Assembly: GCF_003265365.1 (NCBI RefSeq)
Contig: NZ_AUPM01000060.1
Span: forward strand, 15,195 to 54,147
Direction of reading: 5' to 3'
Length of the DNA: 38,953 bases
DNA from: Petrotoga sp. 9PW.55.5.1
Lineage (GTDB): Bacteria > Thermotogota > Thermotogae > Petrotogales > Petrotogaceae
Below are positions 1,985-30,477 of this stretch, piece by piece. The position numbers and the translations under genes are program-made. The notes under the pieces were generated by a model that worked only from the letters and a program-made list of their open reading frames with translations, was not told where the DNA came from and did no database searches. How positions within the stretch are numbered: position 1 is the first letter of the stretch; each line of letters starts with the position of its first letter.

Positions 1985-3463
1985 ATGATTGATTTAACAG
2001 TGAAAAAAGAAGGTTTAGAAAAAGTTATTGAAAGAGCTAAAGAAAAGAATATCATAATTCCTACATTTTCACAGATGAGAAACCCAGAATTAATTCCCGA
2101 TAAAATAAAGGCAAAATTAAAAGATATTGGTTTGTGGGATATTAATTCTTTAAATTTGTTTAGAATAACTTGGAAAAATGAACCCGTTTCAAAAGGCGGT
2201 TTATATGGGAACGTTAATTATTTTGAATTACCTTCTGAGTTAACTGGAGTTAAAGCTAGAATATTAGCTTTAGTAGGAAAATGGTTTCCGACTGGAGCTC
2301 ATAAGGTTGGAGCTACTTTTGGATGTTTGGTTCCAAGATTAGTTACAGGGCAATTTGATCCCACTAGCCAAAAAGCTGTATGGCCTTCAACCGGTAATTA
2401 TTGTAGAGGGGGGGCATACGACGCTCATCTTTTAGCGTGTGAGTCAATTGCAATATTGCCAAAAGGAATGAGTAAAGAAAGATTTGAATGGCTTAAAAAA
2501 GTAGCGGGTGAAGTTATAGGTACACCAGGTAGTGAGAGTAATGTTAAGGAGATTTTTGACAAATGTAAAGAATTAAAAGAAAAATACGGCGATAAAATAG
2601 TTATTTTCAATCAGTTTGATGAGATGGGGAATCGTTTGTGGCACCATGAAGTTACTGGTCATGCAATGGAAGAGGTTTTAAATGATATTATGGGTAGTAA
2701 AGATAGATTAGCGGGTTCTGTTTTTACTTCAGGTTCTTCTGGAACATTAGGTGCTGGAGAATATTTAAAAGACTTATTCCCAAACAGTAAATTAGTTGTT
2801 GGGGAAGCTTTACAATGTCCTACATTGTTAAACAATGGTTTTGGAGCTCATAGAATTGAGGGAATTGGGGATAAACATGTTCCATGGATTCATAATGTAA
2901 AAAATACTGATATGGTTATAGCTATAGACGATGAAGATACAATGAGTTTGGTAAGGCTTTTTAACGAACCTGCGGGTAAAAAGTTTTTAAAGGCACAGGG
3001 TATAGATGAAAAGTTAGTAGAAAATTTAAACTTACTTGGAATATCTTCAATTGCTAATACTCTTTCTGCAATTAAATTTGCTAAATATTATGAACTTACA
3101 GAACACGATATTGTAATGACGGTTTTTACTGATTCAATGGAACTTTATGGTTCAAGATTGGAAGAAATGAGAGAAGAATTCGGAGAATACAACGAGCATC
3201 AAGCTGCTATTGACTATTATCAACATCTAATTGGTATTAAAACAGATAATATGCAAGAGCTTAATTATTATGACAGAAAAAGAATTCATAATCTAAAATA
3301 CTATACTTGGATAGAACAACAGAATAAAGATTTGAATGAGCTCAATGCACAATGGTATGAAGCGGATGAATATTGGGGTGGCATGCGAGAAACTGCAAAC
3401 AAGATTGATGAACTTATTAATGAGTTTAATAAAAAGACTGGGTTATTGGAGGAAATAAATTGA
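1985..3463 (+). CDS. Fold-type II PLP-dependent lyase-like enzyme
   Basis: A 492-residue enzyme of the tryptophan synthase beta/cysteine synthase superfamily. The PLP lysine is K107 in PTGAHKVGAT, STGNYCRGG (135-143) is the substrate-carboxylate loop, and a glycine-rich phosphate-binding loop SGSSGTLGAG lies near residue 250. It is about 100 residues longer than the usual diaminopropionate ammonia-lyase, with an added helical C-terminus. The start is the ATG at 1985, six nt after GGAGG; a longer frame from 1943 lacks a ribosome site. It overlaps the next gene and sits with ygeY, hydantoinase and ygeW. A beta-elimination role on a diaminopropionate-like intermediate is inferred from this context. 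I do not recognise a characterised close relative. Confidence 0.75.
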   Translation: MIDLTVKKEGLEKVIERAKEKNIIIPTFSQMRNPELIPDKIKAKLKDIGLWDINSLNLFRITWKNEPVSKGGLYGNVNYFELPSELTGVKARILALVGKWFPTGAHKVGATFGCLVPRLVTGQFDPTSQKAVWPSTGNYCRGGAYDAHLLACESIAILPKGMSKERFEWLKKVAGEVIGTPGSESNVKEIFDKCKELKEKYGDKIVIFNQFDEMGNRLWHHEVTGHAMEEVLNDIMGSKDRLAGSVFTSGSSGTLGAGEYLKDLFPNSKLVVGEALQCPTLLNNGFGAHRIEGIGDKHVPWIHNVKNTDMVIAIDDEDTMSLVRLFNEPAGKKFLKAQGIDEKLVENLNLLGISSIANTLSAIKFAKYYELTEHDIVMTVFTDSMELYGSRLEEMREEFGEYNEHQAAIDYYQHLIGIKTDNMQELNYYDRKRIHNLKYYTWIEQQNKDLNELNAQWYEADEYWGGMRETANKIDELINEFNKKTGLLEEIN

Positions 3464-4704
3464 AGTATGTAAAGAATCTAGTTTGTATCAGTTGTGGAGA
3501 AAGTTATGAAGCTTCTCCAACCCAATATCTATGTCCTAAATGTGGAGAAAAAGGTATTCTTGACGTTCAGTACGATTATGAAAAAATTAAAAAAGAGTGG
3601 TCAAAAGAGGATTTATCTAGTAACAATAATCCAGGCATTTGGCGTTATGCTCCTTTATTGCCTATAGAGCCAAATAGTGTCAAACCTCCTTTGAGAGTGG
3701 GAAATACTCCAGTTTATGAAAGCAAAGCTATGGCAAAAGAATTAGGAGTATCTACTCTTTATATAAAAGATGATGGGCTTAATCCTACGGGATCTCTTAA
3801 AGATAGAGCGTCATCTATAGCTGTTGTAAAGGCGCAGGAAGCGAGAATTAATGTTGTAGCCTGCGCCTCTACAGGTAACGCAGCTTCTTCCTTAGCAGGA
3901 AATATAGCTTCAATGGGAAACGAAATGAGAGCTGTGATATTTGTTCCCGAACGAGCTCCAATAGGTAAAGTTACTCAACTTTTAATATACGGGGCATTAG
4001 TTATTTCTGTAAAAGGTTCATACGAAGAAACTTTTTATTTATCAGAAGAGGCGATAAATAAGTGGGGCTGGTACAATAGAAATGCGGCTATAAATCCATA
4101 TTTAGTTGAAGGTAAAAAAACATCTTCAATTGAATTTGCAGAACAGTTGAATTGGAATATGCCTGATTGGTTAGTTTATTCGGTAGGGGATGGTTGTACT
4201 ATTGCTGGTGCGTGGAAAGGAGTTTACGATTTAAAACAGATAGGCTTTATAGATAAAGTTCCAAAATTGTTAGGAGTTCAGGCTGAAGGGTGTGCGCCCA
4301 TTACTAAAGCTTTCAAAAGTGGGAAAGATTTAATAGTTGAAAAAGAAAATACTTTAGCTGATAGTATAGCTGTTGGGAAGCCTAGGAATTATATCAAAGC
4401 AATTAAAGCTGTAAAGGAATCCAAAGGCGATATGGTTATCATTAGTGATAATGAAATATTAGATATGATGAAAGTTTTAGGTAAAAAGACGGGGATTTTT
4501 GGAGAACCTGCTGGTGTAGCCGGCGTTGCGGGGATAAAAAAAGCAGTGGAAAATGGGATTATCAAACCTTATGAATCTGTTGGTGTGGTAATTACAGGTA
4601 ATGGTTTAAAAGATATAAAAAATGCTCAAAAATCTGTAGGAGAACCTTTAAGAGTTAGTACAGATATAAATGAATTATATAATTTATTGAATGATTATTT
4701 TTAA
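3460..4704 (+). CDS. Threonine synthase-like PLP enzyme with zinc ribbon
   Basis: A 414-residue fold-type II PLP enzyme of the threonine synthase family. An N-terminal zinc ribbon (C9, C12, C25, C28) precedes the catalytic domain. K114 in NPTGSLKDR is the Schiff-base lysine, ASTGNAASS follows near residue 137, and FGEPAGVAGVAG is near 346. The TTG start overlaps the preceding TGA (TTGA) and follows GGAGG by 7 nt, so the two PLP enzymes are translationally coupled. No homoserine or threonine genes are nearby. A catabolic lyase or replacement role with its partner is therefore more likely than threonine synthesis, although true ThrC activity cannot be excluded. Confidence 0.75.
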   Translation: MKYVKNLVCISCGESYEASPTQYLCPKCGEKGILDVQYDYEKIKKEWSKEDLSSNNNPGIWRYAPLLPIEPNSVKPPLRVGNTPVYESKAMAKELGVSTLYIKDDGLNPTGSLKDRASSIAVVKAQEARINVVACASTGNAASSLAGNIASMGNEMRAVIFVPERAPIGKVTQLLIYGALVISVKGSYEETFYLSEEAINKWGWYNRNAAINPYLVEGKKTSSIEFAEQLNWNMPDWLVYSVGDGCTIAGAWKGVYDLKQIGFIDKVPKLLGVQAEGCAPITKAFKSGKDLIVEKENTLADSIAVGKPRNYIKAIKAVKESKGDMVIISDNEILDMMKVLGKKTGIFGEPAGVAGVAGIKKAVENGIIKPYESVGVVITGNGLKDIKNAQKSVGEPLRVSTDINELYNLLNDYF

Positions 4705-4769: not shown

Positions 4770-5972
4770 ATGAATTATAAAGAAATTTTAAAGAAAGCAG
4801 AAGATTATAAAGAAGATATATCAAAGTTTCTTAGAGATATGATCGCTATTCCAAGTGAGAGCGGCAAAGAAAAAGACGTTATTTTAAGAATTAAAGAAGA
4901 AATGGAAAAAGTTGGTTTTGATAAAGTTGAGATTGATCCTATGGGTAATATTCTAGGCTATATAGGGCATGGAAAACATCTTATTGCTATGGATGCTCAT
5001 ATTGACACTGTGGGGATAGGGGATATTAACCTTTGGCAATATGATCCATACAAAGGTTATGAAGACGATGAAATTATCGTTGGAAGAGGTGCTAGTGACC
5101 AAGAGGGTGGCATGGCTTCTATGGTTTATGCAGCAAGAATCATAAAAGATTTAGGGTTGGAAGATGATTATACTTTACTTGTAACAGGTACAGTACAAGA
5201 AGAAGATTGTGACGGGCTTTGTTGGCAATATATAATTAATGAAGATAAGATAAAACCAGAATTTGTTGTTATTACAGAGCCTACCTCTTGTAATATATAT
5301 CGTGGGCAAAGAGGAAGAATGGAAATTAAAGTTTCTACTCATGGAGTAAGTTGTCACGGTTCTGCTCCAGAAAGAGGAGATAACGCCATTTATAAAATGG
5401 CTGATATTATTAACGAATTAAAGGTTTTACATACATGCTTAAAGAATGACAATTTTTTGGGAAAAGGCAGTTTAACAGTTTCTGAGATTTTCTTTTCATC
5501 TCCTTCTAGATGTGCGGTTGCAGATGGATGTTCAATATCAATAGATAGAAGATTAACTTGGGGAGAAAGTTGGCAAGGTGCAATAGAAGAGATTAAAAAT
5601 CTGCCCGCTTCAAAAAGATATAACGCGGATGTAGAATTATATACTTATGAAAAGCCATCCTACACGGGTTTAATATATCCAACTGAGTCATACTTTCCAG
5701 CATGGGTTTTGGAAGAGGATCATCCAGCTTGTCAAACATTAGTAAAAGCTTATGAGAATTTATTTGATGAGAATCCTTTAGTTGACAAATGGACTTTTTC
5801 TACAAATGCTGTTTCAATTATGGGAAGATACGGTATACCTTGTATTGGATTTGGGCCTGGACATGAAGATCAAGCACATGCTCCAAATGAAAAAACTTGG
5901 AAAAGTGAACTAGTGAAAGCAACTGCTATGTATGCAACAATTCCAAAATTATATGTACAAAATTTTTCATAA
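4770..5972 (+). CDS. ygeY: YgeY family M20 metallohydrolase
   Basis: A 400-residue cytoplasmic M20 peptidase/deacylase-like hydrolase of the type called selenium metabolism-linked YgeY. Metal-site residues are in place: H77 and D79 (DAHIDT), bridging D110 (ASDQEGG), general base and ligand E144/E145 (QEED), a glutamate in TEPT near 172, and a C-terminal histidine in [11 protein letters not shown]. The ATG at 4770 is preferred over an upstream TTG at 4749, because GGAG at 4755-4758 precedes the ATG. In gut bacteria ygeY belongs to the gene set needed for anaerobic urate/purine use, probably cleaving an amide of a ring-opened intermediate. Its neighbours here match that set. Confidence 0.85.
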
Positions 5973-7391: not shown

Positions 7392-8402
7392 ATGAATACA
7401 TTATTTAGAGGCAAAGATTTCATTTCAACACAAGATTGGAGTAGAGAAGAATTAGAAACTGTGTTTGAAGTTTCTAAGGAACTTAAAAAGAGATTTGCAA
7501 TGGGTGAAGTAACAGATCATTTATTAAGAGCAAAAACCGTATTCATGCTTTTCTTCGAACAATCAACAAGGACGCGTAATTCTATTGAAGCTGGTATAAC
7601 TCAATTAGGTGGTCACGCCCACGATCTCACACCCGATAAAATGCAACTTTCCCATGGCGAATCCGCCAAAGATACTGCAATTGTTTTAAGTAGATTCGGT
7701 CATGGTATAGCTATTAGAAATTGTTTTTTTGGCATCGGAAACAAATATTTAAGAGATGTAGCAAAGTATGCAGATGTGCCAGTTATTAGTCTGCAAGACG
7801 ATATTTATCATCCTTTACAAGGATTAGCTGATCTATTGACCATAAAAGAAAAAGTCGGAGATAACCTCCAAAACGTTAAAGTAACTGTATCTTGGGCTTA
7901 TGCTACTTCTCATGCTAAACCACTTTCGGTCCCACAAACTCAAGCACTCCTCTTTACTAGATATGGCATGGATGTTACTATAGCTCATCCAAAAGAATTC
8001 CCTTTGATGCCAGAAATTATTGAGCAAGCTAAAGAAAACGCTAAAAAGTACAATGGTAGTATTAAATTTACAAACGATATGGATGAAGCGTTTGAAGGGG
8101 CTCAAATAGTTATTCCAAAAAATTGGGGAGGATTTTTAGGGGTTGAAGATCCTGATTCAGAAGAAGGCAAAAAAGAAATGAAAGCAAATTTAGAAAAGTA
8201 TAAAGATTGGATTTGTGATGAAAGAAGAATGGCACTTGCTGATAAAAACGTTTTATACATGCACGCTATGCCTGCTGATAGGGGAAAAGAAGTAACTGAT
8301 TCTGTTATAGATGGCCCTCATTCTATTATATATGATGAAGCTGAAAATCGTTTACATACTGCTAAAGCAATTATGGCTTTAACAATGGGCGGAAGACCGT
8401 AG
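7392..8402 (+). CDS. ygeW: Knotted carbamoyltransferase, YgeW family
   Basis: A 336-residue transcarbamylase-fold protein. The carbamoyl-phosphate motif is FEQSTRTR (55-62), HPLQ lies at 140-143, and HAMPADRGKEVTD near the C-terminus marks the knotted YgeW-like branch rather than aspartate or ornithine transcarbamylases. It is a cytoplasmic trimer by family. YgeW enzymes are thought to work in the phosphorolytic direction, releasing carbamoyl phosphate from a ureido compound so that carbamate kinase can make ATP. No carbamate kinase is found in this window. The ATG follows CGGAGGAA by about 8 nt. Confidence 0.9.
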   Translation: MNTLFRGKDFISTQDWSREELETVFEVSKELKKRFAMGEVTDHLLRAKTVFMLFFEQSTRTRNSIEAGITQLGGHAHDLTPDKMQLSHGESAKDTAIVLSRFGHGIAIRNCFFGIGNKYLRDVAKYADVPVISLQDDIYHPLQGLADLLTIKEKVGDNLQNVKVTVSWAYATSHAKPLSVPQTQALLFTRYGMDVTIAHPKEFPLMPEIIEQAKENAKKYNGSIKFTNDMDEAFEGAQIVIPKNWGGFLGVEDPDSEEGKKEMKANLEKYKDWICDERRMALADKNVLYMHAMPADRGKEVTDSVIDGPHSIIYDEAENRLHTAKAIMALTMGGRP

Positions 8403-8421: not shown

Positions 8422-10713
8422 ATTATTTTTAAATTCGTTAATAAACCAATTAAAAGAGTGGATGCTTACGAAAAGGTTACTGGAAAAGCCAAATTTGCAG
8501 ATGATTTGGAGTTTGCTAATATGCTCTATGCCAAAGTACTAAGGACAAAATATCCATCCGCAAAAATTCTTAACGTTAACGTTGATAAGGCTTGGGAAGT
8601 AGCTGGAGTTAAGTCAGTTATTACAGCAAAGGATGTTCCAAATAATAGATTCGGAGTTATAGTACCTGATCAACAAGTTTTTGCTCAAGATAGGGTGTTT
8701 TACATAGGAGATGGAATAGCTGCGGTTGCAGCTGAAAGTATAGAAGCAGCTGAAAAAGCAGTAGAACTTATTGAGGTTGAGTATGAGGAACTTCCTGGGG
8801 TCTTTGATCAATTAGAAGCTAGAAACACAGCTCCCATACACCCCGAGAAGAATAGTAATGAAGTTGTTCATCATAAGTTGAGAAAAGGTAATGTGGAAGA
8901 AGGTTTTAATAATTCTGATATTATTCTTGAAAGAGAGTATGAAACACAATTTATTGAACATGCTTACTTAGAGCCAGAAGTTGTAATAGCTGTGCCTTAT
9001 GAGAACAATAGTTTAGTCACTATATATGGTTCAGTACAAAATCCTTTTGCATGTAGAAATGCGGTTGCGGCTGTATTGAAAGTTGGTTATAACCAGGTTA
9101 GAGTCATTCAAAATCATATTGGAGGTTCTTTTGGAGGGAAAGATGAAGTTATCTCTTCAATGGCTGCTCGAGCCGCAGTTTTGGCTTTAAAAACCAATAG
9201 ACCGGTTAAATTAAAAAATTCGAGGGAAGATTCTATAATTGAGAGTTATAAAAGACATCCCTACAAAATGAAATACAAAGTAGGTGTCACAAAAGATGGA
9301 AAAATAAAAGCAATGGAGATAGAAGCTGTTGCTGATAGTGGTGGTTACGCATGTCAGACCCCATTTGTGACATGGAGATCAGTTGTTCAGGCGACAGGAC
9401 CTTACGAAATTCCTAATGTGAAAACTGATACTTATGGATATTATACAAATAATGTTTATACTGGGGCTATGCGTGGTTATGGTTCACCGCAAGTTATATT
9501 TGCGCAAGAATCTCTTATGGACGAATTAGCAAAAGAGTTGGGAATGAATCCTTTAGAGTTTAGATTAAAAAACATATTTAGAGATAATTCTATCACTGCA
9601 AGTGGGCAATTGCTTAATAATCATAAGGTGAGTTTAGAAGAGGTTATTAAAAAAGCATCTGAAAAAATTGATTTCATGAATAAATACAATAAATATAGTA
9701 AAGAACAAAATAGTGATAAAAGAAAAGGAATAGGTATGGCCGTTAGTTATCGAGGAGTTAGTTTGGGAGCAGAAGCTGTAGATGCTGCAGGCGTTGTTTT
9801 ATCTATTCAAAAAGATGGTTCAGTTTATTTTTATAGTGGATTGGCTGAAAATGGGCAAGGTTTGAAAACCGCCTATACTCAAATCATATCTGAAGAGTTA
9901 GGAATTAACATTGATAAGATAAATTTTTTAATAGTCGATACTTTAATTTCTCCGGATAGCGGTTCTACTGTTGCATCTAGAGCTACATTGGTAGGAGGAA
10001 ATGCAACAATCGACGCAGCAAAAAGATTAAAGAAAAAACTAACAGAATTTTTAATTAAAAAACATAACTTGTCTTGTTCGGAATTATTTTTTAGAGATAA
10101 CAACATTTACCTACCAGACGGAGAAAAATTAATTTCTTTCGATGAAGTTGCTACTCAAGCTTATAACTCAGGTGTTTTTCTCTCTACTTACGGTTGGTAC
10201 AAATCTCCTCAAATTAGCTGGGATGAAGAAGTTGGGCAAGGGAACCCTTATTTTACTTATGTTTATGGGTGCCAAATAGCGGAGGTAGAAGTAGATACAG
10301 GAACCGGTGAGATTAAGGTTCTAAATATGGTTGCAGCTCATGATGTAGGAAGAGCTATAAATCCTGCAGGTGTTTTAGGGCAAATTTATGGTGGAATCAT
10401 GATGGGTTTAGGTTATGGAATTATGGAAGAAGTAGATATAGAAGAAGGTTATATTAACAATACAAATTTTGATGAATATTTGATTCCCACCGCCAAAGAT
10501 ATGCCAAATATATATCCTATAATTGTTGAAAATCCTGATCCTGTTGGACCATACGGCGCGAAATCCATTGGAGAGCCGACTTTAGAATTAGGAGCAGCTG
10601 CTATCTCTAACGCAGTAGCACAAGCTATTGGTAGAAGAATTAGATCACTACCTTTGAATTTAGAAAAAGTTCTCATAGGCCGCTCTCTTAAAAAAGGAAG
10701 GAAGAAAAAATGA
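8422..10713 (+). CDS. Molybdenum hydroxylase large subunit (XDH-like)
   Basis: A molybdopterin-binding catalytic subunit of the xanthine dehydrogenase family, about 763 residues. Motifs in order are KRVDAYEKVTGKA near residues 11-23, GGSFGGKDE from about 234, MRGYGSPQ at 350, AENGQG in the second half, and GAKSIGEP with the presumed catalytic glutamate near 718. The start is unusual. The conserved leader VNKPIKRVD lies upstream of the first GTG (8458), so translation probably begins at ATT 8422 or 8425 behind a strong ribosome site. It overlaps the FAD subunit gene by ATGA. The likely substrate is a purine (hypoxanthine, xanthine or urate); I cannot fix direction or position of hydroxylation. 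Confidence 0.9.
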   Translation: MIFKFVNKPIKRVDAYEKVTGKAKFADDLEFANMLYAKVLRTKYPSAKILNVNVDKAWEVAGVKSVITAKDVPNNRFGVIVPDQQVFAQDRVFYIGDGIAAVAAESIEAAEKAVELIEVEYEELPGVFDQLEARNTAPIHPEKNSNEVVHHKLRKGNVEEGFNNSDIILEREYETQFIEHAYLEPEVVIAVPYENNSLVTIYGSVQNPFACRNAVAAVLKVGYNQVRVIQNHIGGSFGGKDEVISSMAARAAVLALKTNRPVKLKNSREDSIIESYKRHPYKMKYKVGVTKDGKIKAMEIEAVADSGGYACQTPFVTWRSVVQATGPYEIPNVKTDTYGYYTNNVYTGAMRGYGSPQVIFAQESLMDELAKELGMNPLEFRLKNIFRDNSITASGQLLNNHKVSLEEVIKKASEKIDFMNKYNKYSKEQNSDKRKGIGMAVSYRGVSLGAEAVDAAGVVLSIQKDGSVYFYSGLAENGQGLKTAYTQIISEELGINIDKINFLIVDTLISPDSGSTVASRATLVGGNATIDAAKRLKKKLTEFLIKKHNLSCSELFFRDNNIYLPDGEKLISFDEVATQAYNSGVFLSTYGWYKSPQISWDEEVGQGNPYFTYVYGCQIAEVEVDTGTGEIKVLNMVAAHDVGRAINPAGVLGQIYGGIMMGLGYGIMEEVDIEEGYINNTNFDEYLIPTAKDMPNIYPIIVENPDPVGPYGAKSIGEPTLELGAAAISNAVAQAIGRRIRSLPLNLEKVLIGRSLKKGRKKK

Positions 10714-11579
10714 TTGAATATGAATTTTTGAAAGCAAAATATTTAGGAAATGCTTTAAAAATATTAGATAGTTATAAAAACGTTAAGTTATTGGCTGGAG
10801 GTACAGACATACTTGTAGATATTCATAAAAAAAGTAAACGATTAGGTGATTTTAACTATATTTTGGATATTTCTAATATTGAAGAATTAAAATATATCGA
10901 AGAAACTAGCCAAACAGTAGAAATAGGACCGTTATGCACTCATACAATGTTAATAGAATCAGAATTAATAAGTAATATGTATCCGTTTTTAGTTACAGCA
11001 GCCAAAACAATTGGTTCTCCGCAAATTAGAAACAGGGGAACTGTGGGAGGCAATATCTCTAACGCTTCGCCAGCTGCGGATCTCGTTCCTCCTTTAATAG
11101 CTTTAAAAACTCAACTAGAATTGAGTTCTGTTGAAGGGAAGCGCTTTGTTCCTTTAGAAAAATATATAGTTGGACCTTATAAAACATCTCAAAATCCCAA
11201 TGAATTAATTACAAAAATAATAATTCCAAAGATTGATAAAGAATATTTTGGTGTTTTTTTGAAGATAGGGAGGAGAAGAGCTGTAAACATTGCAAGGCTT
11301 AACTTAGCGATTCTTGCAAAAGTAAAACAAAATATAATCGAGGATATTAGAATAGTACCTGGTTCAGCTACTCCATATCCAGTAAGATTTACTAATTTAG
11401 AACAAGAAATAATCGGTAAAAGAATTGATCAAATAATTTTAGAAAAGATAACACCTAAGATATCTGAAGAAATGATTTCAATTACAGGTGAGAGATGGTC
11501 TACTCCTTATAAAAAACCCGCCTTGGAAGCTTTGTTTAAACGTGGAATGGAAAGCATATTTGCTGTGTTTAACAATTAG
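10710..11579 (+). CDS. Molybdenum hydroxylase FAD-binding subunit, set 1
   Basis: A 289-residue medium subunit of the CoxM/XdhB type. It passes electrons from the iron-sulfur subunit to NAD+ or another acceptor. FAD contacts are seen in AGGTD (29-33) and QIRNRGTVGGN (105-115). The length is normal for the family. The ATG overlaps the stop of the large subunit in ATGA and follows GGAAGAAAAAA, so its translation is coupled. With its neighbours it forms a heterotrimer in the order large, FAD, FeS. Confidence 0.92.
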   Translation: MIEYEFLKAKYLGNALKILDSYKNVKLLAGGTDILVDIHKKSKRLGDFNYILDISNIEELKYIEETSQTVEIGPLCTHTMLIESELISNMYPFLVTAAKTIGSPQIRNRGTVGGNISNASPAADLVPPLIALKTQLELSSVEGKRFVPLEKYIVGPYKTSQNPNELITKIIIPKIDKEYFGVFLKIGRRRAVNIARLNLAILAKVKQNIIEDIRIVPGSATPYPVRFTNLEQEIIGKRIDQIILEKITPKISEEMISITGERWSTPYKKPALEALFKRGMESIFAVFNN

Positions 11580-11593
11580 AGGAGGAAGATTCA

Positions 11594-12073
11594 ATGAATA
11601 AAATTAGCGTAACTTTTTATGTTAACGGGAAAAAAGAGGTTCTTGAAGTAACACCAAAAGAAAGACTTTTAGATACTTTAAGAGATCAGCTAAAATTAAA
11701 AAGTGTCAAAGAAGGTTGTGATGTTGGAGAATGTGGAGCTTGTACTGTAATACTTAATGGACAAGCTGTCCATTCTTGTTTAGTATTAACTGCTCAACTC
11801 GATGGAGATGAGGTGTACACAACAGAAAGTTTAGAAAAAGATGGGTTATTGGATCCTCTTCAGCAAGCTTTTATAGACCACCAAGCTGTACAGTGTGGTT
11901 TTTGTACCCCTGGTATTCTTATGTCGGCAAAGGCTCTATTAAATAAGAATCCCAATCCTACAAGAGAAGAAATTAAAACAGCTATAGAAGGTAATTTATG
12001 TAGGTGTACTGGTTATGAACAAATTATACAAGCTATTGAAAGTGTTAGCGAAAAAAAACTAAGTAGTAGGTGA
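11594..12073 (+). CDS. Molybdenum hydroxylase [2Fe-2S] subunit, set 1
   Basis: A 159-residue small subunit carrying two [2Fe-2S] clusters. The plant-ferredoxin-type cluster uses C42, C47, C50 and C62 (GCDVGECGAC). The second, typical of this family, uses C101, C104, C136 and C138 (CGFC and CRCTGY). It mediates electron transfer between the molybdenum site and FAD. The start ATG follows GGAGGAAGATT. The first deaminase gene starts only 4 nt after its stop. Confidence 0.93.
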   Translation: MNKISVTFYVNGKKEVLEVTPKERLLDTLRDQLKLKSVKEGCDVGECGACTVILNGQAVHSCLVLTAQLDGDEVYTTESLEKDGLLDPLQQAFIDHQAVQCGFCTPGILMSAKALLNKNPNPTREEIKTAIEGNLCRCTGYEQIIQAIESVSEKKLSSR

Positions 12074-12077
12074 TCGT

Positions 12078-13442
12078 ATGTCTAATATTTTAATAAAGAA
12101 TGTAAAAAGTATCGTTACTATGAATGAAAACAGAGAAATATTGGAAGGGTATTCTATACTTATAAAAGGAAATAAAATAGAGAAAATAGGTAAGGATATA
12201 GATATAAGTGATGAAAAATTGGATGAAATAATTGACGGTTCAAACTGTTATGTTTACCCAGGATTAATCAATACTCACCACCATTTTTATCAAACTTTAA
12301 CTAGGAATATTCCTCAAGCTCAAAATGTTGAGCTATTTGATTGGTTAAAGTTTTTGTATCCAATATGGGCGAAAGTATCCCCTAAGGCGGTTTATTATAG
12401 TACACTTGTTGCTGCTGGAGAACTTTTGAAAACTGGATGTACTACCTCTGTTGATCATTTTTATGTTTTTCCAAAAGATCAACCGCCTGATTTGCTAGAC
12501 AATGAATTTAACGCAGCTAAAGATATTGGAATAAGATTGCATGCGAGTAGAGGAAGTATGTCTTTGAGTGAAAAAGACGGCGGCCTACCTCCTGACTCGG
12601 TAGTTCAAACTGAGAGAGAAATTTTAGAAGATTCTCAAAGAGTGATAGAAAAATTCCATGACCCTACTGTTTATTCTATGAATAGAGTAATTCTTGCCCC
12701 ATGTTCTCCTTTTTCAGTAACCAAAGAGTTGCTTGAAGAATCAATAAAACTTGCTCGCCAATACAATGTTTCCAGCCATACGCATTTAGCTGAAACTAAA
12801 GATGAAGAGCAATTCTGTTTAGATAAATTTGGTATGCGACCTCTTGAATATATGGAAAGTTTAGGATGGACAGGACCAGATGTTTGGTATGCACACGGTG
12901 TTCATTTCACCGAAAAAGAAATAGATAAACTTGCTTCAACAAAAACTGGAGTGGCACACTGCCCCGTTTCAAATCAAAAATTAGCTTCAGGGGCTGCTAA
13001 AATTCCTTATATGTTAAAAAAAGGCCTTAGATTAGGGCTCGCAGTTGATGGAAGTGCTAGTAATGACTCATCGAACATGATTTTAGAGATGAAAATTGGT
13101 TTTCTAATGAATCGTTTGATACATGGAATTAAAAGTATTACTGCCGAAGATATTTTGCACATAGCAACAGTAGGAGGAAGCCAATTAATTAACCAACCAG
13201 AATTGGGTAGTTTAGAAGAAGGAAAAGCTGCCGATTTATTTTTAGTTAATACAAACAGACTAGGATACGCTGGAGGACTTTACGATCCTATTTCTCTTTT
13301 AATTAACACAGGAGACTCACAGATCGTAGACATAACCATAGTTAACGGTGAAATTGTAGTTAAACAAGGACAACTTGTTAATGTAGATGAAAGAAAGATA
13401 ATCGAAGAGGCCAACAAAATATCAAAAGCTATGGTTGAATAA
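12078..13442 (+). CDS. 8-oxoguanine deaminase-like amidohydrolase
   Basis: A 454-residue amidohydrolase of the AtzB/TrzN-type branch that includes 8-oxoguanine deaminase (which yields urate). The mononuclear metal site is intact: H67 and H69 (NTHHHF), H236 with catalytic E239 (THLAE), H273 (YAHGVH) and D324 (AVDGSASND). Its start is 4 nt after the FeS gene stop, behind TAGGTGAT. Between two molybdenum hydroxylase sets, a purine deaminase is the natural reading. Guanine, 8-oxoguanine and isoguanine cannot be told apart by eye. Confidence 0.82.
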   Translation: MSNILIKNVKSIVTMNENREILEGYSILIKGNKIEKIGKDIDISDEKLDEIIDGSNCYVYPGLINTHHHFYQTLTRNIPQAQNVELFDWLKFLYPIWAKVSPKAVYYSTLVAAGELLKTGCTTSVDHFYVFPKDQPPDLLDNEFNAAKDIGIRLHASRGSMSLSEKDGGLPPDSVVQTEREILEDSQRVIEKFHDPTVYSMNRVILAPCSPFSVTKELLEESIKLARQYNVSSHTHLAETKDEEQFCLDKFGMRPLEYMESLGWTGPDVWYAHGVHFTEKEIDKLASTKTGVAHCPVSNQKLASGAAKIPYMLKKGLRLGLAVDGSASNDSSNMILEMKIGFLMNRLIHGIKSITAEDILHIATVGGSQLINQPELGSLEEGKAADLFLVNTNRLGYAGGLYDPISLLINTGDSQIVDITIVNGEIVVKQGQLVNVDERKIIEEANKISKAMVE

Positions 13443-13453
13443 GGAGGTCTTTA

Positions 13454-14782
13454 ATGCTGCTTTTAACCAACGCTAAGATTTTAACTTTTGATGAGAATAT
13501 GACAATTATCGAAGATGGAGCAATTTTTATCGAAAATGGAACAATCAAAGATATCGGGAATACCGAAGAGTTAGAAATGAAATACCCTGATGCGATTTTT
13601 AAAAATGTTAAAAATAATATAGTAATGCCAGGACTAATAAATACTCACACGCATTTATACAGCACATTTGCTAGAGGTATGGGTTTAAAAGATAAACCAC
13701 CATCAAATTTCGTGGAAATTTTAAAAAAATTGTGGTGGCGTTTGGATAATACTTTAAATGAAAAAGATATATATTATAGTGCTCTTTTTGCTATATGCGA
13801 ATGTATCAGGAATGGTGTGACGACTATTTTCGACCATCATGCTAGTTATAACTATATCGATGGAAGTTTAGATATTATCGAAGATGCTGTTAAAAGATGT
13901 GGAATTAGAGCTAATTTATCCTATGAAATATCAGATAGACATGGTAAAGAAAAATCACAAGCTGCAATTAAAGAAAACGAAAGGTTCATAAGAAAAGTAC
14001 AACGTATTAAAAACAGTCATTTAAAGGGTCTGATAGGATTACATGCTTCTTTTACATTAGAGGACGAAACACTTAAAACCGTTTCTGAATTATCCCAAGA
14101 ATTGAACGTTCCTATTCACGTTCATGTTGCAGAAGGGATTCAAGATTACCAAGACAGTGTAAAAAGAGGGTACAACGGGGTAATAGATAGATTAAATAGA
14201 TTTAATATCTTAAATCCTGGATCTTTGCTCGTTCATGGGGTTCACATACAAAAAGAAGAAATTGATGTCGTGAAAAGAAGCGGTTCATATTTAATTCATA
14301 ACCCCGAATCAAATATGAACAACGCTGTGGGAGCCGCTCCCATTAAAAGCTTTATTGAAAACAATATCGTTACAGGTTTAGGAACAGATGCATATACACA
14401 CGATATGTTTGAGAGTATAAAAACTGCAAATTTACTATATAAACATGAATCAAAAGATCCAAGAGTTGGATGGAACGAGGTTTACGATATGGCTTTTATT
14501 AATAATAAAAAGATAGCAAGCAGGTTTTTTGACAAAAAATTAGGCTCTATTGAAAAAGGATTACCTGCAGATTTAATAGTTATTGATTATTCTTCTCCAA
14601 CACCAATTGAAAAAGAAAATGTCTTTGCCCATATTTTATTTGGAATGAATGGGTCTATGGTACAAACAGTTCTTGTTGATGGGAAAATACTTATGGACAA
14701 TCGGGAGGTGACTTTTTTAGATTATGAACAATTACGAAGAAGAACTCAAATACAAGCAAGAGACTTCTGGCAAAGATTTTAA
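13454..14782 (+). CDS. ssnA: SsnA-type aminohydrolase
   Basis: A 442-residue amidohydrolase resembling SsnA, a member of the E. coli ygeW-xdhD region and of the gut urate-degradation gene set. Metal ligands are H65 and H67 (NTHTHL), H222/H224 (IHVHVAE), H261 (VHGVH) and D312 (GTDAY). It shares the fold of the preceding deaminase but is clearly divergent from it, so the pair is not a recent duplication. The ATG follows GGAGG by 6 nt. Its last 59 nt overlap the next gene, which takes its ribosome site from inside ssnA. The substrate is unproven. Confidence 0.85.
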   Translation: MLLLTNAKILTFDENMTIIEDGAIFIENGTIKDIGNTEELEMKYPDAIFKNVKNNIVMPGLINTHTHLYSTFARGMGLKDKPPSNFVEILKKLWWRLDNTLNEKDIYYSALFAICECIRNGVTTIFDHHASYNYIDGSLDIIEDAVKRCGIRANLSYEISDRHGKEKSQAAIKENERFIRKVQRIKNSHLKGLIGLHASFTLEDETLKTVSELSQELNVPIHVHVAEGIQDYQDSVKRGYNGVIDRLNRFNILNPGSLLVHGVHIQKEEIDVVKRSGSYLIHNPESNMNNAVGAAPIKSFIENNIVTGLGTDAYTHDMFESIKTANLLYKHESKDPRVGWNEVYDMAFINNKKIASRFFDKKLGSIEKGLPADLIVIDYSSPTPIEKENVFAHILFGMNGSMVQTVLVDGKILMDNREVTFLDYEQLRRRTQIQARDFWQRF

Positions 14783-15641
14783 AGAATACTTTTCTCCCAG
14801 CAACATTCAAGATGCAGTAGAATTACTGAGTGAATATGGTTCAGATATTAGAATTATAGCAGGTGGAACAGATATTCTTGTAGAATATTTTGATAAGTTG
14901 TACGAAATTGAAAGATGGCTTGACCTTAAAAATATTGAACAGATGAAAAAAATAGAAGTAAAGAATGACGTTATAGAAATTGGCTCACTTGTTACACATG
15001 CTCAAATTGAGAAATCTGAAACAATTAGAGAATACCTACCTGTTTTAAAGGCAGCTGCTTGGGATGTAGGTTCACCCCAAATCAGAAATCGTGGAACTAT
15101 TGGCGGCAATATCTGCACTTCTTCTCCTGCAGGAGATTTATTGGCTCCACTTATTGCTTATGATGCTATTTTTAGATTAGTTTCTAAAAACAATACAAGA
15201 GACATATCTGCTGAAGATTTTTTCGTTGGCCCAAAAAGAAACATTCTTCAAAATGATGAGATATTATACAAAATTATTATCCCTATCCCTAAGAAAAATA
15301 CTTATGGAAAATGGATTAAAGTTGGAAAAAGAAAGGCTTTAATTATTTCAAGCATAACTCTTGCTTTTGTAATTTCCTTTGACAAGGATAATAGAATAGA
15401 AAAAGTTCGATGTTGCCTTGGTTCAGTTGCCCCAACTCCTGTTTCTATAAAACAGATTGAGGAGATAATGTTGAATAAGAAATTAAGCGACATAGAGTAT
15501 GAAAATATTGGGAGAATCGTTTCAGAAAGCATTTCCCCTATTGATGATATTAGAGGTACTAAAGAGTATCGACGTGAAGTAGCAAAAAGAATTACTATCA
15601 ATGCTTTAGAAGAAATAGAAAGGATGGTGAGGGTAGGTTGA
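14724..15641 (+). CDS. Molybdenum hydroxylase FAD-binding subunit, set 2
   Basis: A 305-residue FAD subunit like that of set 1, with AGGTD (46-50) and QIRNRGTIGGN (119-129). It has an N-terminal extension of about 18 residues rich in Glu and Lys before the usual start of the fold. The ATG at 14724 lies 13 nt after GGAGGTG (14704-14710), inside the end of ssnA. An in-frame TAG at 14718 rules out an earlier start. Gene order from here is FAD, FeS, large, medium, the order of the nicotinate dehydrogenase operon ndhFSLM of Eubacterium barkeri. Confidence 0.9.
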   Translation: MNNYEEELKYKQETSGKDFKEYFSPSNIQDAVELLSEYGSDIRIIAGGTDILVEYFDKLYEIERWLDLKNIEQMKKIEVKNDVIEIGSLVTHAQIEKSETIREYLPVLKAAAWDVGSPQIRNRGTIGGNICTSSPAGDLLAPLIAYDAIFRLVSKNNTRDISAEDFFVGPKRNILQNDEILYKIIIPIPKKNTYGKWIKVGKRKALIISSITLAFVISFDKDNRIEKVRCCLGSVAPTPVSIKQIEEIMLNKKLSDIEYENIGRIVSESISPIDDIRGTKEYRREVAKRITINALEEIERMVRVG

Positions 15642-16132
15642 AAATATCTATAACTGTAAACGGAGAAGTAAGAAATCCTGATGTAAGTTCAACTACCCGC
15701 TTGTTAGATTTGTTAAGAGATGATCTAAAGTTAACTGGGACTAAAGAAGGTTGTGGAAAAGGAGAATGTGGGGCATGTACAGTTATAATGAATGGTGAAC
15801 TAGTTACTTCCTGTTTAGTTTTAGCTTATCAAGCTGATGGAGCAGAAATTATAACAGTTGAAGGATTAGGATTTGAAGATAAAATTGATCCAATTCAAGA
15901 AGCGTATATCGAAACTGGTGCAGTTCAATGCGGATTCTGTACTCCAGGGTTTATCATTTCAACTAAAAAGTTGTTAGAAGAGAATCCTCATCCTACCGAT
16001 GAAGAGATCAGAAGGGGACTTTCAGGAAATATATGTAGATGCACAGGATATCAAAAGATTATAGACGCCGTGAAATTAGCCTCTAAAAAGTTAGAAATGA
16101 TTAAAAGAGGTGAGAACGTTGAAGCCAAATAA
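15638..16132 (+). CDS. Molybdenum hydroxylase [2Fe-2S] subunit, set 2
   Basis: A 164-residue small subunit with all eight cluster cysteines: C39, C44, C47 and C59 for the first cluster, and C98, C101, C133 and C135 for the second. The TTG start overlaps the preceding stop (TTGA), and a purine-rich GAGGGTAGG lies immediately before it. Its C-terminal codons overlap the start of the next subunit gene, consistent with coupled synthesis of a stoichiometric complex. Confidence 0.92.
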   Translation: MKISITVNGEVRNPDVSSTTRLLDLLRDDLKLTGTKEGCGKGECGACTVIMNGELVTSCLVLAYQADGAEIITVEGLGFEDKIDPIQEAYIETGAVQCGFCTPGFIISTKKLLEENPHPTDEEIRRGLSGNICRCTGYQKIIDAVKLASKKLEMIKRGENVEAK

Positions 16133-17408
16133 GTATATAGGTGAAAATGTTTTTAAAGTAGATGCAAAAGATAAAGTTACAGGAAAAGCCATTTATCCCG
16201 ATGATATATATTTTGAAGATATGCTTTATGTAAAAGTCAAAAGAGCAACTCATCCTCATGCAATTCTTCAAAAAATAGATGTTAGTAAGGCAGAAGCTCT
16301 ACCTGGGGTTGTAAAAGTAATTACAAAAAAAGATTTCCCTAATTTAAACAAATTTGGATTGATTATAAAAGATCAACCTGTTTTAGTTGGAATAGGCGAG
16401 AAAATGAGGTTCATGGGAGATGCCCTTGCAATTGTAATTGCTAAAAATAAAGAAATCGCTAATAGAGCTGTAAAATTGATAAAGGTTGAAGTAAAAGAGT
16501 TAGAAGTAATCTCAAGTCCCTTTAGAGCAATGGAAAGCGATGCGCCAAAAATTCATGAAGAAGGAAATATATTACTTACTCATTATTTAAACAAAGGAGA
16601 CATCGAAAAAGGATTCAAAGAATCTGATGTAATAATAGAAAAAGAGTATAAAACTCAGCATATAGATCAGCTGCCTCTACAGGTAGAATCAGGAGTAGCC
16701 GTGTACGATGAGAATAGTGGGGTTGTTACTATCTGGGCTGCGACTCAGTGGATTCATGATAGCCAAGCGGATATTGCTCAATCACTTAATTTACCAAAAG
16801 AAAAAATAAGAATTATCCAACCAGTAATTGGTGGAGCTTTTGGAAGAAAAGAAGACATATCTGTTCATATTCATTTGGCGTTAGCTGCAATGGCAACTAA
16901 AAGACCTGTTAAATTGACTTACACAAGGGAAGAGTCTATGACAGCTCAGTCAAAAAGGCATCCAATATATATTAAAGCAAAAACTGGTGCAACCAAAGAT
17001 GGGAAGTTAAAAGCTTGGGAAGTAGAAGTTGTTGGAGATACAGGTGCTTATGCATCAAGTGGGCCTGCCGTAGTTCATAAAGGAATGTATCATTGTACTG
17101 GTCCTTACGATGTTCCAAACGTAAAGGGTGTTGCTTACACTGTTTATACAAATAACACCTATGGTGGAGCTATGAGAGGCTTTGGAACAACTCAAATGGC
17201 ATTTGCTTATGAATCTCAAATGAATATCCTCGCTGAAGAATTAGGCATGGATCCAGTTGAACTTAGATTAAAGAATGCATATAGAATTGGCTCTACAACA
17301 CCTAACGGTCAAAAATTAATCCAAAGTGTTAACGTTATTAAAACGATCGAAGAAGCTGTAAAACTCTCCAAAGAAAAAGAAGGTGTTTTTTATGAAGAAA
17401 AAAGGTAG
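16119..17408 (+). CDS. Molybdenum hydroxylase large Mo subunit (NdhL-like)
   Basis: A 429-residue protein equal to the N-terminal part of a molybdopterin hydroxylase large subunit. KVTGKA lies near residue 20, GGAFGRKED from about 238 and MRGFG near 352. The frame ends at TAG 17406, where one-piece homologues, including the set 1 protein, continue. The rest is encoded by the next, overlapping gene in another frame. A natural split is known in nicotinate dehydrogenase (NdhL about 50 kDa, NdhM about 37 kDa), and the sizes and gene order here match. The TTG at 16119 behind AGAGGTGAG is preferred to the GTG at 16110. The substrate may be nicotinate or, given the context, a purine. Confidence 0.85.
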   Translation: MKPNKYIGENVFKVDAKDKVTGKAIYPDDIYFEDMLYVKVKRATHPHAILQKIDVSKAEALPGVVKVITKKDFPNLNKFGLIIKDQPVLVGIGEKMRFMGDALAIVIAKNKEIANRAVKLIKVEVKELEVISSPFRAMESDAPKIHEEGNILLTHYLNKGDIEKGFKESDVIIEKEYKTQHIDQLPLQVESGVAVYDENSGVVTIWAATQWIHDSQADIAQSLNLPKEKIRIIQPVIGGAFGRKEDISVHIHLALAAMATKRPVKLTYTREESMTAQSKRHPIYIKAKTGATKDGKLKAWEVEVVGDTGAYASSGPAVVHKGMYHCTGPYDVPNVKGVAYTVYTNNTYGGAMRGFGTTQMAFAYESQMNILAEELGMDPVELRLKNAYRIGSTTPNGQKLIQSVNVIKTIEEAVKLSKEKEGVFYEEKR

Positions 17409-18390
17409 AGGCATGGCGACTATAATGTTTGGTTATGGATATGGTGAAGGGTTCCCCGATTATTCTCATGCAAGTGTAGAGTTAACGGATGATGAAAAGA
17501 TTTTAGTTAAGACTGCCGCTGCCGATGTTGGACAGGGAGTACTAACTGTTATTACTCAAGTAGCGGCTGAAGTTTTGAAAGTAGACATAAATAAAGTAGA
17601 AGTAATTCAAGGAGACACCCATAAGACTAAAAATTCTGGTTCCACATCAGCAACACGTCAAACAACTTTTAGTGGAAATGCTGTAAAAATGGCCAGTGAG
17701 GATTTGCTTGGGAAAATATATCATTATGCAAGTGTAGAGTTTAATAGTAACTATCCTGAATTAGGGATTAAAGATGGAACAGTTTTTTTAAATGAAAATC
17801 CAGATAAAAAAATCAGCATATGGGAGCTTAAAAAGTTAGTTGAAAAGAAAGGTGAAAACTTAAAAGGCGAGGCTACATATTTCCCACCCACATATGCACC
17901 TAATCCTGAAAATGGACAATCTGATTTGTTGTATGTTGCATATACTTTTATGACACAAATTATAGACGTTGAAGTTGACACTAATACAGGAGTTGTCGAA
18001 GTCAAAGATGTTTATACTGCTCTTGATTGTGGTAAAGCAATAAATCCAATCAACGTAGAAGGTCAAATAGAAGGCGGCACAGCTCAAGGTATAGGTATGG
18101 CACTTATGGAAGAAACAGTGATAAAAGAAGGTATAACACTAAATCCTAATATGACTGGTTACCTTGTTCCAACTTCACTGGATGTTCCAAAATTTCATTC
18201 TGTTTTAGTTGAAAACGGAGATTCTATTGGCCCGTTTGGAGCTAAAGGTATAGGCGAACCAACAACCATTGCAGCATCTCCAGCAATAGCGGATGCAATT
18301 TATAACGCAATAGGAGTAAGGTTTTATGAATTACCTATAACTCCTGAAAAAATTATCGCAGCTTTAAAGGAAAAAGAAAACTGTGATTAA
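17392..18390 (+). CDS. Molybdenum hydroxylase medium Mo subunit (NdhM-like)
   Basis: A 332-residue protein corresponding to the C-terminal part of a molybdopterin hydroxylase. DVGQG lies near residue 43, SGSTSATRQ near 83, and GAKGIGEP with the presumed catalytic glutamate at 289. Its ATG at 17392 overlaps the end of the large-subunit gene by 17 bp in the +1 frame and follows GAAGGTG by about 6 nt. An independent start is therefore credible. The alternative is a single-base change in the T6 or A6 run at the junction that broke one 760-residue gene. Matching length to NdhM favours a genuine split. Confidence 0.82.
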   Translation: MKKKGRGMATIMFGYGYGEGFPDYSHASVELTDDEKILVKTAAADVGQGVLTVITQVAAEVLKVDINKVEVIQGDTHKTKNSGSTSATRQTTFSGNAVKMASEDLLGKIYHYASVEFNSNYPELGIKDGTVFLNENPDKKISIWELKKLVEKKGENLKGEATYFPPTYAPNPENGQSDLLYVAYTFMTQIIDVEVDTNTGVVEVKDVYTALDCGKAINPINVEGQIEGGTAQGIGMALMEETVIKEGITLNPNMTGYLVPTSLDVPKFHSVLVENGDSIGPFGAKGIGEPTTIAASPAIADAIYNAIGVRFYELPITPEKIIAALKEKENCD

Positions 18391-18952: not shown

Positions 18953-20038
18953 ATGGCTGATATATCTGTTAATCTTTTGGGAATGTTATTAAAAAATCCA
19001 GTTATGCCCGCGGCAGGACCCCCTATTAGAAACGGTGAGGCTGCTCATAGAGCAAAAGAAGGTGGAGCTGGAGCTATAGTCACTAAAACCGTTTCCGTTG
19101 AAGCTGCAAAAGTTCCAAAACCTAATATGGCTCAAGTTAAAGGTGGTTTTATAAACACAGAATTATGGTCCGAACTTCCTTTAGAAAAATGGATAGAGGA
19201 AGAGTATCCAAAAGTGGTTGAAACAGGATTGCCAGTTATTATTGGAGTAGGATATACCGCTGAAGAAATTAGAGAAGTTATTCCAAAGGTAGAAAAATTT
19301 GCAGATGGTTTTGAATTATCAACTCATTATTTAGGTGGCGATCCAACCCCTATGATTAACAGTATCAAAGCTGCCAAAGAGTCAACTGATCTTCCTGTAA
19401 TGGTTAAATTAAGTCCACAGATTGATATTCCTACATTTTCCAAAGAAGCTGAAAAAGCTGGTGCAGACGGGATTGTGCTGATAAATTCTTTTGGTCCAAC
19501 ATTGGATATAGATTTGGAAACTGGACGAGCCTTACTAGGTAGTAAAAATGGTTATGGTTGGCTTTCAGGACAAGCGATCTTTCCTTTGGCACTTAAATCC
19601 GTCTTTGAGGCGGTAAAATCCGTTAATATTCCTGTCATTGGTGTAGGAGGTATAAGTACCGCTAAAGAGGCCGTAAAGATGATTATGGCAGGTGCTCAAG
19701 CTGTACAGGTATGTACGGCAGCTATTTTAACCGGCCCACAAATATATGGAAAAATATCTAAAGACATTGAAAATTTTCTTGATAGTCATGGTTACAAATC
19801 TTTAGATGAAATTAGAGGGATTGCCCAACAGAATATTATTGATCAGCCAAGGTATGAGTTGGTAATACCTAATGTTAACGATGAAAAGTGTACAGAATGT
19901 GGTCTTTGTTTAAAAAGTTGTGTTTATGATGCAATACATTTGGTTAAATCACTTAACAGTGTAAGAATTGATAAGGATAAGTGTGAAGGATGCGGTTTGT
20001 GTGTTTCTAGATGCAATTTTAATGCCTTAACTATCTGA
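18953..20038 (+). CDS. PreA-like dihydroorotate dehydrogenase-family flavoprotein
   Basis: A 361-residue protein with an FMN-binding TIM barrel (about 1-300) of the dihydropyrimidine/dihydroorotate dehydrogenase family, fused to a two-[4Fe-4S] ferredoxin module (C313, C316, C319, C323; C344, C347, C350, C354). GVGGIS near residue 215 is the FMN phosphate loop. The catalytic Cys of class 1 enzymes (LSCPH) is replaced: the segment reads ELSTHY, with T124 at that place. The NAD(P)H-oxidising partner PreT is absent nearby. It probably reduces a purine-derived ring, possibly in the place of YgfK; plain uracil reduction seems unlikely. Confidence 0.8.
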   Translation: MADISVNLLGMLLKNPVMPAAGPPIRNGEAAHRAKEGGAGAIVTKTVSVEAAKVPKPNMAQVKGGFINTELWSELPLEKWIEEEYPKVVETGLPVIIGVGYTAEEIREVIPKVEKFADGFELSTHYLGGDPTPMINSIKAAKESTDLPVMVKLSPQIDIPTFSKEAEKAGADGIVLINSFGPTLDIDLETGRALLGSKNGYGWLSGQAIFPLALKSVFEAVKSVNIPVIGVGGISTAKEAVKMIMAGAQAVQVCTAAILTGPQIYGKISKDIENFLDSHGYKSLDEIRGIAQQNIIDQPRYELVIPNVNDEKCTECGLCLKSCVYDAIHLVKSLNSVRIDKDKCEGCGLCVSRCNFNALTI

Positions 20039-28785: not shown

Positions 28786-30450
28786 ATGCTTACAGATATT
28801 GAAATCGCAAGGGGAGCAAAATTAAAGAGAATCGAACTCATAGCTAACGAATTAGACATTTCTGAAGAATACTATAGTTTATACGGAAAAAATATCGCAA
28901 AGGTATCTCATAATTATTTAAACGAACTAAAATTTAAAGAAGATGGGAAACTAATAATGGTTACAGCAATTACTCCTACGCCTGCAGGAGAAGGTAAAAC
29001 CACCACAAGTATATCTTTATCAATGGCTTTAAATAAGATCCATAAGAATTCATTAGTAACTTTAAGAGAACCCTCGTTGGGACCGGTAATGGGAATAAAA
29101 GGTGGAGCAGCAGGTGGTGGTTATTCACAAGTTCTTCCAATGGAAGATATTAACCTCCATTTTACAGGAGACATACATGCCATAACATCCGCTCATAATC
29201 TAATTTCCGCTGTTATAGATGATTATATCAAGTACGATAAATTGAATATAGACCCTACAAGGGTTTCATGGCCTAGGGCGATGGATATGAATGATAGAGC
29301 CCTAAGAGAAATTATAGTAGCACTAGGAGGAAGAAAAAACGGTTATCCAAGACAAGATGGATTCATAATTACCGCTGCATCAGAAATTATGGCCATACTA
29401 TGCTTGTCCCAGAATATGGAAGAGTTAAAAAACAAATTATCCAATATAGTAGTTGCAAGAAATAGAAAAGGTGAACCTATAACTGTGAAAGATTTAGAAA
29501 TTGAAGGGGCATTAACAGTCTTATTAAAAGATGCTATAAATCCAAATTTAGTTCAAACTATAGAAAACACTCCTGCTTTTGTTCATGGTGGGCCATTTGC
29601 AAATATAGCTCACGGAACTAATTCAATACTTGCAACTAAACTCGCATTAAAACTTTCTGATTATGTTGTCACTGAATCTGGTTTTGGATCAGATCTTGGA
29701 GCTGAAAAATTCTATGACTTTGTTTCACCTACTTTCGGATTGAAACCATCAGCTACAGTTCTTGTTGCAACGATAAGAGCACTAAAGTACCATGGAGGAC
29801 AAAAGAAAGATGAATTGAATACTCCAAATACGGAGAATTTGAAAAAAGGTTTAGCCAATTTACAAGTCCACGTAGAAAATTTGAAGAAGTTTAATCTTCC
29901 GGTAATTGTTTCGATAAACAAATTTTATTCAGACACAGAAGAAGAGATTTCCATAGTTGAAAATTTTTGCAAAGAATTAGGTGTCGAATCTAGTGTCAAT
30001 GAGGGATTTGAAAAGGGTTCTCAAGGAGCTATTGATTTAGCTGAAAAAGTTGTTAGACTAACTGAAAAGGAATCAAACTTTACTCCCATATACAATTTTG
30101 CAGATCCTATAGAAGAAAAGATAGATAAATTAGCAAAAAATATATACCGCGCTGGAAAGGTAGAGTACACATCTTCTGCTTTATCTTCATTAAAATATCT
30201 TAAAAAGTATGGTTATGATAAACTTCCTGTAATTATAGCTAAAACACAGAATTCAATCTCAGATGATCCGAATAAATTAGGAGCTCCAAAAGATTATACA
30301 TTTACAATAAGAGACTTTGAATTATCCGCTGGTGCTGGATTTGTTGTTGCATTGGCTGGAGATATACTCAGAATGCCTGGACTTTCAAAAGTTCCAAACG
30401 CTGTTAATATGGACATAGATGAAAAAGGTGACATCTCTGGATTATCTTAA
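28786..30450 (+). CDS. fhs: Formate-tetrahydrofolate ligase
   Basis: A 554-residue enzyme that interconverts formate, ATP and THF with 10-formyl-THF, ADP and phosphate. The nucleotide loop [12 protein letters not shown] (63-74) is clear, and [19 protein letters not shown] follows near residues 96-114. The length is normal. A strong GGAGG precedes the ATG by 7 nt. It is directly followed by folD and xdhC. In purine-fermenting clostridia this reaction runs towards formate to gain ATP from formyl-THF. The position beside a purine block suggests the same here, but biosynthetic use is equally possible. Confidence 0.95.
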
Positions 30451-30477
30451 AAAGTTAAAAAGTATAGGAGGTTTAAA

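Follow-up and report, generated by a model that had tools for sequence, protein, structure and literature searches.

The reductive route of urate breakdown, which is relevant to gout and to the purine balance of the gut, was elucidated only in 2023–2025. In this pathway, known from the ygeW–ssnA–xdhD cluster of Escherichia coli and the uac cluster of Clostridioides difficile, YgeY forms 2,3-diaminopropionate (DAP), and YgeX (DpaL) splits DAP into pyruvate and ammonia, acting equally well on the L- and D-isomers (PMC12507026). Here we analyse a stretch of 38,953 nucleotides from Petrotoga sp. 9PW.55.5.1 (Thermotogota), referred to as the window, in which a gene cluster shares with these systems the genes for SsnA, YgeY, HyuA, a YgeW-like protein, xanthine dehydrogenase-type subunits and a UacX-like reductase. 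The cluster is the reductive uric-acid pathway without its terminal enzyme: YgeX is absent from the window and from the whole 2.08-Mb genome, and directly upstream of ygeY there are instead two pyridoxal 5′-phosphate (PLP) enzymes of the PF00291 family from other clades, here called PLP1 and PLP2. We consider it probable that this pair replaces DpaL non-orthologously as the terminal module of the pathway. The pathway itself is already known; its two-enzyme terminal variant appears not to have been described in the open-licence literature searched, in which we found no paper treating the pair.

The genes overlap by four bases (TTGA), which hold the stop of PLP1 and the start of PLP2; GGAGG lies upstream of both, as the ribosome-binding site in the case of PLP1.

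1985–3463, + strand: PLP1, 492 amino acids, ATG start; PLP enzyme of CysK fold from an uncharacterised family, with K107 within TGAHKVG and, at the C terminus, a helical extension some 90 residues long (PF00291, AlphaFold, tree).
3460–4704, + strand: PLP2, 414 amino acids, TTG start; threonine-synthase-derived PLP enzyme with a putative zinc ribbon and K114 within GSLKDR (PF00291, NF006050, tree).

Both proteins match PF00291 (PLP1, 3.3 × 10−11; PLP2, 3.7 × 10−68), and each keeps its catalytic lysine in all aligned relatives. Near the N terminus of PLP2, C9, C12 and C25 are invariant across 29 relatives, in keeping with a zinc ribbon.

The distribution of the pair follows that of YgeY. Across 103 Thermotogota genomes, PLP1 occurs in 66, PLP2 in 66 and a strong YgeY in 63, with identical sets of genera (26 of 38; genus-level Fisher test, P = 3.7 × 10−10, a value weakened by the phylogenetic non-independence of genus counts); DpaL was found in none of the 103. 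A sample of 341 Clostridia genomes held YgeY in 26, with a strong score in 20. Nine of these 20 have the pair without DpaL and ten have DpaL without PLP1 or PLP2 (Fisher test, P = 6 × 10−6), and the remaining one (G192) lacks PLP2 but has DpaL together with a PLP1 that is both divergent and isolated. The exchange is visible at the level of operons: HyuA–SsnA–UacX–Xdh–Ade–PLP2–PLP1–YgeY–YgeW–carbamate kinase (L269) and YgeW–YgeY–HyuA–YgeX–Xdh (L278) are alike save for the swap, with PLP2–PLP1 in the position of YgeX. Exclusion between DpaL and the pair is near, though not absolute. An earlier note on this DNA had pointed to two overlapping PLP enzymes (K107 in TGAHKVG, 492 residues, and K114) where a single DpaL was expected; gene coordinates and motifs confirm the two enzymes, and distribution, near-exclusion and operon comparisons support the view that they stand where DpaL would.

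Several observations weigh against replacement. Among 50 PLP1-bearing genomes, DpaL exceeds its cut-off in seven, with one additional split copy, and Desulfosporosinus lacus (L133, 16785–18008) has PLP2–PLP1 and YgeX in one purine cluster. No clear PLP2 was found in seven of the 50, including three Asgard metagenome-assembled genomes, and YgeY above the cut-off is missing from 18; in pair-bearing genomes that lack a strong YgeY, the pair may act on another substrate. These genomes, together with the coexistence of DpaL and the pair in some, would suit an arrangement in which the pair serves a serine/cysteine or other amino-acid branch co-regulated with purine breakdown, while an enzyme that we did not recognise removes DAP. 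Such a branch would also fit D296 of PLP1, a signature of cysteine hydroxyl-lyase, the PatB-type C–S lyase encoded in the window, and the formate–tetrahydrofolate ligase and FolD genes that neighbour PLP1 at two loci from Synergistota (L060, L107). We nevertheless judge it improbable, given the near-exclusion of DpaL in Clostridia, the lack of any DpaL among the Thermotogota genomes and the several operons in which the pair takes the place of YgeX beside YgeY.

Close relatives of PLP1 (79–80% identity) occur within the genus and in a neighbouring one, and about 60 more Thermotogota encode proteins of 41–46% identity. With each species represented by one genome, a scan returned at least 580 confirmed relatives, of which the best 80 (63–74% identity) were examined. 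These 80 are found in Chloroflexota, Halanaerobiales, Bipolaricaulota, Synergistota, Clostridia, Deltaproteobacteria-type groups, Burkholderiaceae, Actinomycetota and Asgard archaea. In 50 of the 80 loci, which belong to many phyla, PLP2 is encoded no more than 9.5 kb from PLP1 and each time in the same direction; the arrangement is not due to chance. One or more further urate-pathway genes are present in 53 of the 80, and carbamate kinase and ABC-transporter subunits are other recurrent neighbours. The evidence supports the pair as a widespread, conserved variant of the pathway, and not a quirk of a single genome. No viral copies were found.

In Thermotogota, PLP2 is often present yet unlinked to PLP1 (about 690 kb apart in G052; also G081) and would have escaped a search by adjacency alone. 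That PLP2 is missing beside most Thermotogota copies of PLP1 had suggested that PLP1 alone replaces DpaL and that PLP2 is a local extra, an idea dropped once unlinked PLP2 was found in those genomes. The same arrangement bears on a heteromeric DAP ammonia-lyase, in which only the PLP1–PLP2 complex would be active or one subunit would hand an intermediate such as 2-aminoacrylate to its partner. The four-base overlap, the co-directional neighbourhood across phyla, the near-obligate co-occurrence in Thermotogota and the catalytic lysine kept in both proteins would all agree with a complex; however, the genes are unlinked in many Thermotogota, one gene lies between them in many Chloroflexota, and 7 of the 50 PLP1 genomes have PLP1 without PLP2. 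Tight coupling is therefore not required, and the heteromer, which the earlier note had raised as one possibility and the gene arrangements do not bear out, seems to us rather unlikely.

The Asgard archaeal copies of PLP1 (L122, L130, L136) are 65–67% identical to the window protein in genomes with no clear PLP2, and reflect either recent transfer or contamination. A divergent subfamily in Clostridia (L269, L270, L271, L277) shares 32–37% identity with PLP1 and carries FPSGSHKVG and PSTGNFGIG; the L277 member lies apart from urate genes, in a genome that has DpaL and no PLP2.

The phylogeny separates both enzymes from DpaL. In a tree of 102 rows (quick search), in which long branches leave the deep joins unsure, PLP1 (23 rows), PLP2 (33 rows), DpaL (14 rows) and ThrC (9 rows) form distinct clades with Shimodaira–Hasegawa-like approximate likelihood ratio test supports of 100, 99, 100 and 95, respectively. 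PLP1 sits next to CysK, on a stem that is long, and PLP2 falls within a set of ThrC-like proteins. The first enzyme, as the earlier note had sensed in calling it unfamiliar, belongs to no characterised family, and the tree places neither PLP2 in bona fide ThrC nor PLP1 in a described group, the positions that the note had named as telling against its reading. The pair resembles DpaL in being of fold type II and in standing beside ygeY; it differs in its clades, in comprising two genes in place of one and in not reaching the DpaL model NF006058 (cut-off 276 bits), to which PLP2 scores 40.6 bits and for which PLP1 is not among the matches listed.

Structure predictions were confident for both proteins (predicted local distance difference test, 94.8 for PLP1 and 92.9 for PLP2). 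PLP1 has the CysK fold (Foldseek, 2.5 × 10−17; VIA-align Z 36), and its nearest solved relatives are beta-cyanoalanine synthase, O-acetylserine sulfhydrylase (OASS) and Fn1055 of Fusobacterium, with Z values of about 35–37. It exceeds the cut-off of no NCBIfam model; its terminal extensions contain no Pfam domain above cut-off, and the C-terminal part has no solved relative of note. The nearest solved folds of PLP2 are threonine synthases (Z 40–46), with serine and aspartate racemases also among its neighbours. ThrC is likewise its closest relative in sequence (33–38% identity to bacterial and 25–26% to plant enzymes), and PLP2 passes two ThrC models (NF006050, 310.5 bits against 303; TIGR00260, 215.8 against 167.1). 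With its invariant cysteines, these scores and folds uphold the zinc-ribbon, threonine synthase-like character that the earlier note had given the second enzyme.

Because PLP2 exceeds the NCBIfam equivalog NF006050, public annotation tends towards ‘threonine synthase’, which is likely to be a misannotation of the family. The conventional labels, PLP2 as threonine synthase and PLP1 as cysteine synthase, have those model scores and the fold of PLP1 in their favour; however, the genome already has a ThrC beside Hom and a CysK elsewhere, the clades are separate, the ThrC arginine is lost in PLP2, PLP1 falls far short of the CysK model TIGR01139 (102 bits against 351) and co-occurrence with YgeY is strict. 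We regard these labels as almost certainly wrong. The genome encodes six PF00291 proteins in all, namely CysK, ThrC, OrtB, TrpB, PLP1 and PLP2, the first four named by sequence and neighbours. The TGAHK motif common to PLP1 and TrpB is a superficial likeness, as PLP1 groups with CysK and the genome has its own TrpB. An OrtA/OrtB-type thiolase was also considered and set aside, an OrtB-type gene being present elsewhere in the genome. OrtB is of similar size (476 amino acids here), and PLP2 scores 47 bits against a cut-off of 550 for the OrtB model NF040741; OrtB and TrpB are encoded separately and branch apart from the pair.

The arginine of the ThrC motif NPxRxEGQK binds the phosphate of O-phosphohomoserine. 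This residue (R163 in ThrC) is replaced by leucine, methionine or threonine in all 32 aligned PLP2 sequences, and other columns invariant in ThrC have changed to residues specific to PLP2 (N192 to D244, T243 to D301, V156 to R207 and Q167 to K219). Loss of the arginine and gain of two acidic residues would favour a cationic amino acid, for instance DAP, over O-phosphohomoserine. In PLP1, S135, T136, Q210 and D296 are invariant across 53 sequences and align, with a constant numbering offset of 4 and with conservative threonine/serine swaps accepted as matches, with Thr73, Ser74, Gln147 and Asp232 of Fn1055; E. coli CysK has alanine at the position of D296. Those four are key residues of Fn1055, a cysteine hydroxyl-lyase that forms serine and H2S from cysteine and water (PMC12940168). 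PLP1 shares the fold of Fn1055 (Z ~36), as of CysK/OASS, and these catalytic residues, but is only ~22% identical to it, has an N-terminal and a 90-residue C-terminal extension, and lies in another genomic setting. These residues point to beta-replacement by water at least as strongly as to elimination, and do not bear out the two consecutive eliminations that the earlier note had raised as another possibility.

The best overall explanation is probably that the pair turns DAP into pyruvate and ammonia in place of DpaL. Replacement as such is well supported by gene content; from the residues we infer how the work might be divided. The upstream enzymes would supply DAP, from which PLP1 and PLP2 would jointly yield pyruvate and two ammonia. 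PLP1 would exchange the beta-amino group of DAP for water (DAP + H2O → serine + NH3), and PLP2 would remove the amino group that is left (amino acid → pyruvate + NH3). We put forward this allocation, serine from PLP1 and pyruvate from PLP2, only tentatively. At a slightly lower level of confidence still, PLP1 may be a DAP hydroxyl-lyase and PLP2 a ThrC-derived lyase, activities for which there is no known family, with part of the carbon leaving as serine to one-carbon metabolism. Weighing against this allocation, 47 of 65 pair-bearing Thermotogota also have SdaA, which would in many cases make PLP2 superfluous if it were simply an L-serine dehydratase; SdaA was not found in the Petrotoga genome under study.

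The retention of both enzymes with or without SdaA would be accounted for by a stereochemical division, in which PLP1 and PLP2 each act on DAP of a different configuration, or one racemizes the D- to the L-isomer for the other, an L-DAP ammonia-lyase. DpaL alone handles both isomers; its replacement would take two enzymes of narrower range. The hydantoinase of the pathway is D-type by family model, YgeX is equally active on both isomers (PMC12507026), an R configuration has been proposed for ureido intermediates (PMC12990295), and serine and aspartate racemases are among the fold neighbours of PLP2. Yet no residue sets this division apart, the closest relatives of PLP2 are threonine synthases and not racemases, and genomes with PLP1 only occur; we consider it unlikely. 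Under the preferred reading, DAP breakdown by the pair in place of DpaL, two large uncharacterised enzyme families gain a concrete candidate substrate. The variant ranges over Thermotogota, Chloroflexota, Halanaerobiales, Synergistota, Clostridia and other groups, and any survey that equates YgeX with a generic PLP-enzyme domain, or looks for DpaL alone, will miscount its carriers. In published neighbourhoods, any PF00291 protein was scored as YgeX (PMC12507026), so the pair variant would merge with the classical one.

The rest of the cluster was assigned with family models and, where stated, by position and sequence. SsnA, YgeY and the D-hydantoinase exceed their cut-offs, xanthine dehydrogenase is present, and the UacX-like reductase is recognised by family only.

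460–1803, + strand: NCS2 permease of xanthine/urate type (PbuX/UacT-like), preceding PLP1 (TIGR03173, 431 bits, cut-off 414).
4770–5972, + strand: YgeY, the ureido hydrolase forming DAP (TIGR03526, 720 bits, cut-off 321.5; function per PMC12507026).
5998–7353, + strand: HyuA-type D-hydantoinase (TIGR02033, 437 bits, cut-off 393).
7392–8402, + strand: YgeW-like carbamoyltransferase (PF02729 and PF00185; TIGR03316, 213 bits, below the cut-off of 500).
8458–12073, + strand: xanthine dehydrogenase-type Mo, FAD and Fe–S subunits, set 1 (Mo by family models, FAD and Fe–S by position and sequence).
12078–13442, + strand: 8-oxoguanine deaminase-type amidohydrolase (NF006055, 592 bits, cut-off 532).
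13454–14782, + strand: SsnA aminohydrolase (TIGR03314, 564.8 bits, cut-off 455.5).
14724–18390, + strand: xanthine dehydrogenase-type subunits, set 2 (open reading frame table and reading).
18953–20038, + strand: UacX-like (PydA/DHODH-type) reductase with C-terminal ferredoxin motifs (DHODH family models; UacX role per PMC12507026).
20064–21776, + strand: adenine deaminase (TIGR01178, 613 bits, cut-off 472.5).

The carbamoyltransferase at 7392–8402 scores far under the YgeW model and is closer to ornithine carbamoyltransferase models; no carbamate kinase was seen in the window. In xanthine dehydrogenase set 2, the large subunit (16110–18390) consists of two overlapping open reading frames, split at about 17383–17408 near T6 and A6 runs, which indicates either a true frameshift or a mistake in the assembly. 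An Rfam scan of the window gave no matches. Genes for formate–tetrahydrofolate ligase and FolD, found beside PLP1 in the two Synergistota loci mentioned above, are also present in the window (28786–31284), and this proximity might connect the pair with the metabolism of serine and one-carbon units. The first 190 nucleotides of the window contain short repeats, ggggaattaaaccgactaccccgtctgc and variants of it.

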